From positions 19,612,678 to 19,676,677 of the forward strand of contig NC_092579.1 in the NCBI RefSeq assembly GCF_037975245.1: a stretch of DNA of 64,000 bases, written 5' to 3'. The notes beneath the pieces were generated by a model that searched no databases, was not told the DNA's origin, and saw only the letters and a program-made list of their open reading frames with translations. Source of the stretch: Apostichopus japonicus. Taxonomy: Eukaryota; Echinodermata; Holothuroidea; Aspidochirotida; Stichopodidae. Both the position numbers and the translations under genes were made by a program. Below are positions 23,201 through 35,219 of this stretch, in pieces. How positions within the stretch are numbered: position 1 is the first letter of the stretch; each line of letters starts with the position of its first letter.

Positions 23201-26200
23201 CATGTGACAATATTTCAGAAAAGAAATAGGAACAATAGCAAAAAGAAGATGGAATTGAAATGTACGACCTCATTGTGGCACTACAACAGTGCGCAATTCC
23301 AAAATGGTATTTAGCCCCCCCCCTCCCCTAACCTTCTACCTCCTTTCCCAACCCTCTCCTAAGATGATTTTGGAAACAACGATACTCTAAAAAATATTTT
23401 TGTTTTCTCATTGCTCTGAAATCTGGGGAACGGGGAATCATTCAGCACAATTCTAACAATCATTTTACGGTCAAAATAATGTTGTTCGGCTTCAAATTCC
23501 TATATTGAAAGAATTTTGTGACAATTAGTAACAGTGGGAAAGGGGAGCAGGGAATTGTTCAGCACAACTCTCTCAATCATTTTCCGGTCAAAATAATGTC
23601 GTTTGGCTGCAAATTCCTATATTAAAAGAATCTTATGACAATTAACAGTGGAAAAAAAAACTGCAATTTGGAAATTTCATAAGAATCGAGATCGACAGCA
23701 AAAATTTCCCTCTCCAGTTTGTTATATGCAATGCTTGTTTGAGGTCTCTATACTTGCATGTACTTAAATCAGTAAAAAAAGGACCAGAATTGCGCATGGA
23801 GGGAATAATCGGTTTCAAGACATATATTGAAAGCATTTTGATATAATCATTGCACACATCAAATAATTGCTAGCATTCAAAGCATATAACGACCTTCTTT
23901 TTTTTTTTTTTCTTTTTGATGGATGGATGGATGGAATGATAGTTATTTCTGCATCTTTGTATGGTTAATCATATCTATCCATAAGTCCATTTGTGTTTTC
24001 TTGAACATTGAAACATATCCAACGTAGAAACTCCTATATCTTTCTGTGTATTTGTTTGTCGACATCTACAATTGTGAATATATTATATATTAAAGTTGCG
24101 GATATATACTAAAATGATTTTATTGAAGGATATTTGTAGGCAATGGTGGTAGGCCCCCCCCTCTCAAAAAAAAAATTAAAATTAAAGGCTGAGTGAACAG
24201 AAGTGAAAAAGTTTCTAGAAAGCAGGAGGTTAGGTTGTTTATGATATCTGTTAATTTATCAACCACTTTTCATATATTTGCCCGTTCACTGGTTTCACTG
24301 GTTTTCTTTAATATAATCTTTTCACTGAGGAAATTTGAAAAAAAAGGTAATTTTCGCAAACGAGAACCAAACTAGTAAACATACTGGCAGTAAAATGTTT
24401 GCACCAATTCTCCTCAAAATGGTATCAATTTTGGCATTAAATCCTAGTGGGGCCTTTTTCCTTGTCTTGTTTATTATAGTTATTACATACAATATAAATA
24501 CATATATATATATCTTTAGTTTCTTATGCTGGATGGAGATGAAAAATGGATATAATTTGAAAGTTGATGAATGGTCTGCCCTATGGAGACAATAAACCAC
24601 AACTGCTGCATTTTTAGTCTGTTAAGTCAAAATATTTGATTATAGTTGGTCTGTATCATCACATCGCAAAATGACTCTTTCTATGATAAAAACCAGAAAT
24701 ATTAGTTGGACTAGACATTTTAATTTCCTTTAATAATGTAGTAACTCTTGATAATAAAAACAGAAATTTTGGCTTTTTGAATAGAAATATTCAAATGACG
24801 TTAACTTTTTTGTTTTCCTTCCACGATTTCGTTGACGTTGAAGGTTAGAACTGACGTCATAGTGATCTACATATCATCTCATTATTTCCACTTTGTTTAA
24901 TTCTTTAAAGGAGAGTCAAAGAGAGAGCCAAAGCAAAAATAAATGGAAGAAATGAAGGGGAAAATATATATATTTTTTTTAATTACAACTTAAAAACAGT
25001 TATTGAATTAATAGACTGGAAGATTTTTGGGGTTGGATTTTTTTTATGCTGGTAGTGCAATAGCTGAGGGATTCAATTTTGCCAGAAAACAGCGCCAACT
25101 ATTTTAGCCTAGACCACGAAAATCACACCGGGGAGAGAGAAAATTAGCGTATTCTTCCACGGTCTGTGCAGGCAGTTTGACATCCGCTCCAAAAATACTC
25201 AGAATTCAAGTGGACATGACCGCAACGATATCATAGTTTAATAATGGGCAGAATCCAATAATTTTTTGTGTAAATATGTAATGACTTGGTCACATACACA
25301 TACACACACAAACACGCAAGAAGGAAAGCTACTGTAGGTTTAATTTTCTTACAGATGAACAAAGGCAGTGGTCATTCTTCATTTTCAATATAGTTTGTTC
25401 AAAATGTAACATATTTACTCAGAAAGGTTGATGCAAAGCAAAGCTCAATTTAATGTTGTGTTATTTCTGTTACCTTTGAAATGCAGGATTCAGGTTTTTT
25501 TAGCAGAGGGGTAGATCACAGAAAAAAAGTTTTAAAATGAAAACTCTTTGAAAATTGTATTAAGCTTTTGTTCAAATGCAGCCGTTACAAAGTTTGACTA
25601 TGATCAGGTATGAATTCAACAAAAGAAAAACAATTATTAATAATAAAAAAAAGAAGTTTATATTGATGAAATTTTCGGGTATAAATTTGCCAAGAATTTT
25701 TTTTAACTTCTATTGATCACAAAACAACTTAATTGGTTAATTACTTGTTGCTAATGACAATGAAGGATTGTTTCTTTAAATTAACACCACCAAAGTGTTA
25801 ATACCAGATATTCCTTGGGGTGAGTCTCGTTCTGTACCTCCATCTCTCTCTCTTTGTACCCTTCTCTTTGATGTCTTCGGGTCGGTTCTCGTCGTACCCC
25901 CCTCCCCTTACGCATGTTCCACCACCGATCCCTCACCTCACTGTACCCCGTTTTTTGTGTCTTTTGTGTTTCCCTCTACAGAAAAACCCTCGCAAGCCAG
26001 AAAATTTTGACCCGTATTTCACGAAGAACGCCTGCACGTTAACGCCTACCGATAAGTTCATCATTTCCAACATTGGGGACGAGTTTGGCGGCTTCACGTT
26101 CGTCAATCCGCAATTTGACGGTTTCGTGAAGGGAGACCCAGAGTAGAAAGCAAGGAGGTGGCGTTAAGGACTCCAGCGACCCTCCTTCCCCTCCTCTCAC

Positions 26201-35219: not shown

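Follow-up and report, generated by a model that had tools for sequence, protein, structure and literature searches.

A conventional protein kinase C (cPKC) gene with two complete, alternative tail exons, V5a and V5b, was found in the stretch of 64,000 nucleotides of Apostichopus japonicus DNA analysed here, hereafter called the window. Judging from exon anatomy, genome searches and the phylogeny of the tails, we consider it likely that a single echinoderm cPKC is finished with either V5a or V5b, that the underlying exon duplication took place before the split of echinoderms and vertebrates, and that PRKCB is the vertebrate gene keeping both exons. If this is true, the supposed hallmark of one vertebrate gene would represent the ancestral state of the deuterostome cPKC, and echinoderms, for which the search found one cPKC gene, would offer a clean system to study the roles of the tails free of paralogues. 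The point is sound but modest, because the parts and their logic are known and two-tail gene models may already be present in annotations of echinoderm genomes.

Shared kinase body and two tail exons

The cPKC gene comprises 13 shared exons, seven of them upstream of the window (from C19:19495280, 117 kb before the window begins) and six inside it, and it extends over approximately 152 kb from the start codon to the second stop. The six internal shared exons are all located on the plus strand. E8 (11077-11223) encodes the hinge and the glycine-rich loop and has AG/GT borders in phase 0, E9 (13178-13443) encodes the N-lobe of the kinase with 81% identity to the human beta sequence, and E10 (15070-15271) contributes the catalytic and activation loops. 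They are followed by E11 (17134-17214), E12 (19446-19553) and the last shared exon E13 (20694-20834), which ends at the donor GTAAGT at 20835. Within an intron, window positions 13878-14941 look like tandemly repeated sequence and contain an open minus-strand frame of YCTPT/LLYT repeats.

Both alternative terminal coding exons are found downstream of E13 on the plus strand, 8.9 kb apart. V5a (25982-26146; 165 bp) is preceded by an acceptor AG at 25980-25981 and encodes 54 amino acids followed by the stop TAG, and V5b (35073-35219; 147 bp) is preceded by an acceptor AG at 35071-35072 and encodes 48 amino acids followed by TGA. Because the 1854 preceding coding bases are divisible by 3, both exons are in phase 0 to the donor GT at 20835; all introns of the gene are of the GT-AG type, its exon phases are consistent and both tails are in frame. 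Each V5 exon has its own NFD motif, turn-motif Thr-Pro, hydrophobic motif and stop, and each one alone is recognized by Pfam as Pkinase_C (V5a 29.5 bits, V5b 50.1 bits, cut-off 20.9). An earlier model reading of the letters, here termed the sequence-only reading, had proposed two complete V5 exons in phase 0 to this donor, and they were confirmed at exactly these positions together with acceptors, motifs and stops. The joined products have 672 (V5a form) and 666 (V5b form) amino acids and differ only in the V5 tail. A Pfam scan of the V5a form returned C1_1 in two stretches, C2, Pkinase and Pkinase_C in the order of a conventional PKC, corresponding to the C1A-C1B-C2-kinase-V5 layout of this group.

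In the pre-mRNA, position 20834 would be joined to either 25982 or 35073, giving one kinase body with one of two tails. The exon anatomy permits such a use of both V5a and V5b, one per transcript, and we infer that both are used. The conserved NFD, turn (Thr-Pro) and hydrophobic motifs of both tails suggest that either form would mature by phosphorylation and become an active kinase, whose location and partners the V5 tail would govern, by analogy with mammalian betaI and betaII. In mammals, inclusion of the betaII exon leaves the last exon untranslated, while skipping of the betaII exon results in betaI, as described in a figure legend of PMC3537621. The order of a II-like exon first and a I-like exon second, which the sequence-only reading had ascribed to vertebrates, agrees with this legend. 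A search for a mammal-like donor in the first kilobase after the V5a stop revealed two weak donor-like sites (+11 and +568), a density not above the level in the cPKC introns, where 1.6 such sites occur per kb. Poly(A) hexamers are present after both stops, where they are uninformative in an AT-rich window with 2.0 of them per kb overall.

The lack of a visible mammal-like cassette form and the divergent sequence of V5a would also agree with V5a being a relic or unused exon, the gene yielding the V5b form only. We regard this as very improbable, because the acceptor, the frame and all three motifs of V5a are intact, nonsynonymous divergence (pN) between the two exons is far below synonymous divergence (pS), and the longest AG-free stretch of the entire gene precedes this acceptor. 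This pyrimidine-rich stretch (25825-25979, plus strand) is 155 nt long and ranks first among the gene's 14 acceptors; before the V5b acceptor an AG-free stretch of 101 nt with a CT repeat was found (34970-35070, plus strand). The median at the 12 constitutive cPKC acceptors is 35.5 nt, with one of them, that of E3 (103 nt), exceeding 100, and at the V5 acceptors of the two novel PKCs the stretches measure 78 and 31 nt. Among human exons, alternative splicing has been reported to be commoner at AG-free stretches of at least 100 nt (68 of 235 versus 47 expected; PMC1431707). The long AG-free stretches at the V5 acceptors, which were noticed post hoc, might therefore be taken as a weak hint at regulation. 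No Rfam families were detected in window positions 11000-40000.

The only cPKC gene found, a probable undivided PRKCA/B/G counterpart

No other cPKC gene was found in the genome, and by its sequence the locus corresponds, in undivided form, to three vertebrate genes, PRKCA, PRKCB and PRKCG. The genome searched amounts to 671.6 Mb in 35 contigs and the search scores only the best candidates, hence a single cPKC means a single one found. With an 89-residue kinase exon as query, one match showed 100% identity and the other nine at most 74% (10 matches, 23 candidates scored). The human regulatory half reached at least 66% identity at the cPKC locus only (32 matches, 55 candidates scored), and a six-frame search with 53 of the 54 V5a residues gave only the places of V5a and V5b at E <= 0.001 (3 candidates scored).

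Among the human PKC sequences used in these comparisons, the alpha and beta tails match PDB alignments. The body shares 442 of 614 residues (72.0%) with human alpha, 436 of 617 (70.7%) with beta and 411 of 612 (67.2%) with gamma, and human alpha and beta have 509 of 614 residues in common. The approximately equal closeness to alpha and beta indicates an undivided PRKCA/B/G counterpart and no PRKCB. The likeness to PRKCB that the sequence-only reading saw in the terminal exons does not extend to the gene as a whole, and an assignment as PRKCB was ruled out, because its body is no closer to beta than to alpha and E13 is even closer to alpha (best PDB match PKC alpha with 68.8 bits, beta 59.5 bits). 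Pkinase_C is named in PMC3238295 among the domains over-represented in genes that were retained after the two vertebrate genome duplications, which fits the reading of the cPKC gene as an undivided counterpart.

Downstream of V5b, at a distance of 28 kb, a CACNG/TARP-like gene follows in the same orientation, with its N-terminal exon at 63531-63752 (plus strand); it is not part of the PKC gene and is regarded as synteny evidence. In the PDB, this first exon matches calcium channel gamma-2 subunits best (E 1.7e-7), and alone it obtains 15.3 bits for Pfam PMP22_Claudin, below the cut-off of 26.7. A later exon outside the window (C19:19680396-19680659) matches CACNG7 with an E value of 9.6e-8, compared with a best E value of 1.0 in two reversed controls. 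The search for further CACNG exons with CACNG2 returned the first exon only within the 163 kb searched. Human CACNG genes adjoin PRKCA, PRKCB and PRKCG, and the placement of the TARP-like gene downstream of the cPKC gene matches this human PRKC-CACNG neighbourhood.

Contig C35 (16,099 bp) of the same genome is mitochondrial. When AAA is read as Asn and ATA as Ile, it encodes a COX1 containing RMNNMSFW and PIMIGGFGNW, which we take to be the expected stretches of this protein. The gene order is cox1, nad4L, cox2, atp6, cox3, nad3, nad4, nad5, nad6 (minus strand), cob, 12S, a tRNA cluster, nad1, nad2 and 16S; the protein genes other than COX1 were named from their reading frames, while rRNAs and tRNAs were assigned by Rfam. 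Code and gene order are characteristic of echinoderms and belong to the echinoid/holothuroid type, so that the sequence-only reading was right to call the cPKC an invertebrate gene. In G000 contig C29 (14745-31219), minus-strand fragments of COX1 have 3' ends 16,097 bp apart, which is nearly the length of C35, and they probably stem from a mitochondrial genome copy, tandem or concatemeric, among the small contigs.

Ancestry of the two tails

The downstream exon can be classified with fair certainty as a betaI-type exon. In a search within the window, V5b showed 71% identity to the human betaI tail (E 1.8e-20), and against PDB chains it scored 61.5 bits with human betaI, 50.8 with alpha and 45.2 with betaII, including 14 consecutive residues identical to human betaI (PDB 8se2). 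V5b carries the LFIMNLDQ stretch, the betaI signature that the sequence-only reading had noted in the downstream tail, and it groups with human betaI. The support of the V5b-betaI branch is moderate (81.6 aLRT / 68 UFBoot) and amounts to 48.8 / 58 in a smaller tree of 10 tails.

For V5a, the best-scoring placement is that of a type II exon, i.e. one of the alpha/betaII/gamma kind, and this assignment is provisional and of moderate certainty. The same search gave 46% identity to the human betaI tail (E 8e-11), and the scores against PDB chains are nearly equal (alpha 35.6, betaI 32.5, betaII 31.8 bits), as are the identities to V5b, betaI, betaII and gamma, which range from 40 to 52%. Two features of V5a recur in all three type II tails (alpha, betaII and gamma): NFD is preceded by E and FT by an aromatic residue, whereas the six novel-PKC tails of the alignment have N or S before NFD and D or E before FT. 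Its turn motif LTPTDK is that of type I and not the LTPPD of type II, and it is one residue short before the hydrophobic motif. The split uniting V5a with alpha, betaII and gamma received 88.6 aLRT / 77 UFBoot.

The codons point to a considerable age of the exon pair. Over 45 aligned codons, V5a and V5b differ by a pN of 0.35 and a pS of 1.05, i.e. synonymous sites are saturated, and the same codon is used in only seven of the 22 identical residues, which argues for an old split with a maintained protein sequence. The rival explanation assumes an independent duplication of the tail exon in the echinoderm line, in which V5a is a fast-evolving copy of V5b, unrelated to betaII, and only V5b is common with vertebrates. 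The near equal likeness of V5a to all the tails named above agrees with it, and according to PMC9741552 orthologous genes can acquire tandem duplicated exons repeatedly and independently of one another. The saturated synonymous sites and the type II residues of V5a before NFD and FT, which differ from those of the novel-PKC tails, speak against such a copy.

The tree tests bear on the same question. In the first tree of 10 tails, V5b was placed with betaI and V5a adjoined alpha/betaII/gamma, and none of the six constrained alternatives was rejected (AU at least 0.14), among them the echinoderm-specific sister pair of V5a and V5b with AU values of 0.14-0.24. When the cPKC tails were constrained together, all three trees with V5a and V5b as sisters were narrowly rejected (AU 0.041-0.046); grouping the four human tails as a clade, with this constraint omitted, did not lead to rejection (AU 0.37). 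The main test used 12 tails, including two novel-PKC tails from the same genome, and compared eight topologies, each with three models and two trimmings of the alignment, with the cPKC tails held together by constraint and alignments of 47 to 63 columns. The additional tails come from an epsilon-like V5 exon (L034, 4953-4816, minus strand) and a delta-like V5 exon (L038, 4546-4686, plus strand), and no second V5 exon was found for either gene in the 40 kb fetched for each.

In this main test, the orthologous pairing of V5b with betaI and of V5a with alpha/betaII/gamma was best in all six settings (AU 0.89-0.95). The echinoderm-specific duplication, in three forms, was 6.5-9.3 log units worse, with AU values of 0.004-0.087 that fell below 0.05 in 13 of 18 tests; in the other five it was not rejected. 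We therefore consider an origin of the pair within the echinoderm line unlikely, and a lineage-specific duplication, the outcome the sequence-only reading had named as speaking against itself, is disfavoured by the 12-tail set. Topologies with V5a deepest or V5a joined to type I (H3 and H4) were not rejected in any of 12 tests (AU 0.09-0.31), while AU values of 0.014-0.117 were obtained for the swapped pairing (H5) and of 0.034-0.084 for the topology that unites the human tails inside the cPKC group (H6). The unconstrained tree, built in one setting (trimmed alignment, LG+G4) and rooted on the novel PKCs, also gives the orthologous pairing.

Collectively, these data moderately support a tail-exon duplication older than the vertebrate PKC duplications. 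The corresponding claim of the sequence-only reading gains from the one cPKC found, its body equidistant to human alpha and beta, the best-scoring orthologous pairing and the synonymous saturation. In this scenario, V5b and the human betaI exon would share one ancestral exon, V5a would most likely derive from the exon now present in alpha, betaII and gamma, and the duplication would have preceded the separation of echinoderms and vertebrates; PRKCB would have retained both exons and, by parsimony, PRKCA and PRKCG would have dropped the type I exon.

A search for relatives in viral contigs gave one match to V5a, around FDGFVKGDP, in L017 (1794 bp). It is situated within an unrelated long viral open frame, which by a motif looks like an RNA virus polymerase, and was rejected as chance.

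Tail choice in other animals

The finding bears on a list in PMC9741552, in which, as far as the passage concerned goes, PRKCB, fly Pkc53E and worm pkc-2 are grouped as tandem duplicated exon substitutions of vertebrates, arthropods and nematodes and presented as evidence for convergence. The exon pair might be older still and ancestral to bilaterians, in which case the arthropod and nematode cases would partly trace back to the same event; this extension of our reading is a possibility against which we lean slightly. It would fit the grouping of the three genes in one list and the crayfish Cherax quadricarinatus, in which two cPKC transcripts differ only in their final 48 residues, a length that matches a V5 exon (PMC12608923). 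The list itself speaks of convergence and leaves the PKC exon unspecified in that passage, and fly Pkc53E proteins are described in PMC10318518 as differing at the N-terminus, hence the fly event may be elsewhere in the gene. Put tentatively, the choice between type I and type II tails might be one ancient bilaterian event that was in place before protostomes and deuterostomes parted and that single-copy cPKC genes have preserved for over half a billion years. The vertebrate alpha/beta/gamma split might have partly swapped a splicing choice for separate genes, and at least some of the nematode and arthropod cases of convergence might go back to this event.

In the literature considered here, we found nothing on echinoderm cPKC tail exons; the articles by Garcia-Concejo and Larhammar (2021) and Gomez et al. 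(2021) may already cover the topic. Looking for PKC tail peptides in the texts of papers gave two hits, neither of which appears to deal with PKC tails, and the letters of the betaI and betaII tail peptides are absent from the part of the PMC6338754 text considered here. SpPKC1 of the sea urchin and PKC1 of Lytechinus pictus are likewise cPKCs, and PMC1187879 reports that the sea urchin may have no further cPKC gene. The section of that paper on the SpPKC1 cDNA names one reverse primer at a stop codon and mentions no second tail, and with this single primer a second tail could have been missed. The crayfish transcripts cPKCD1 t1 and t2 resemble the sea cucumber case in their shared body and different C-termini and fit a choice of tail exons in a protostome, hence the choice may be older than the case shared by deuterostomes; they differ in being from a protostome and in being known from a transcriptome only, according to the transcript description in PMC12608923.

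The closest known system is vertebrate PRKCB. In both it and the sea cucumber gene, two complete tail exons are each closed by a stop, and the type II-like exon precedes the betaI-like one. The exon junction reported here is the point where the human betaI and betaII sequences diverge in alignments, and the run of 14 identical consecutive residues links the betaI-type exons of both genes. Unlike PRKCB, the gene analysed here has a body that is not beta-specific and stands as the only cPKC found in its genome, and its V5a is less like betaII (52% identity) than human alpha is (69%). The two tails represent an old arrangement in a new place and not a new kind of system; with them, the known splicing choice of vertebrates would also apply to an echinoderm cPKC, the only one found in its genome.
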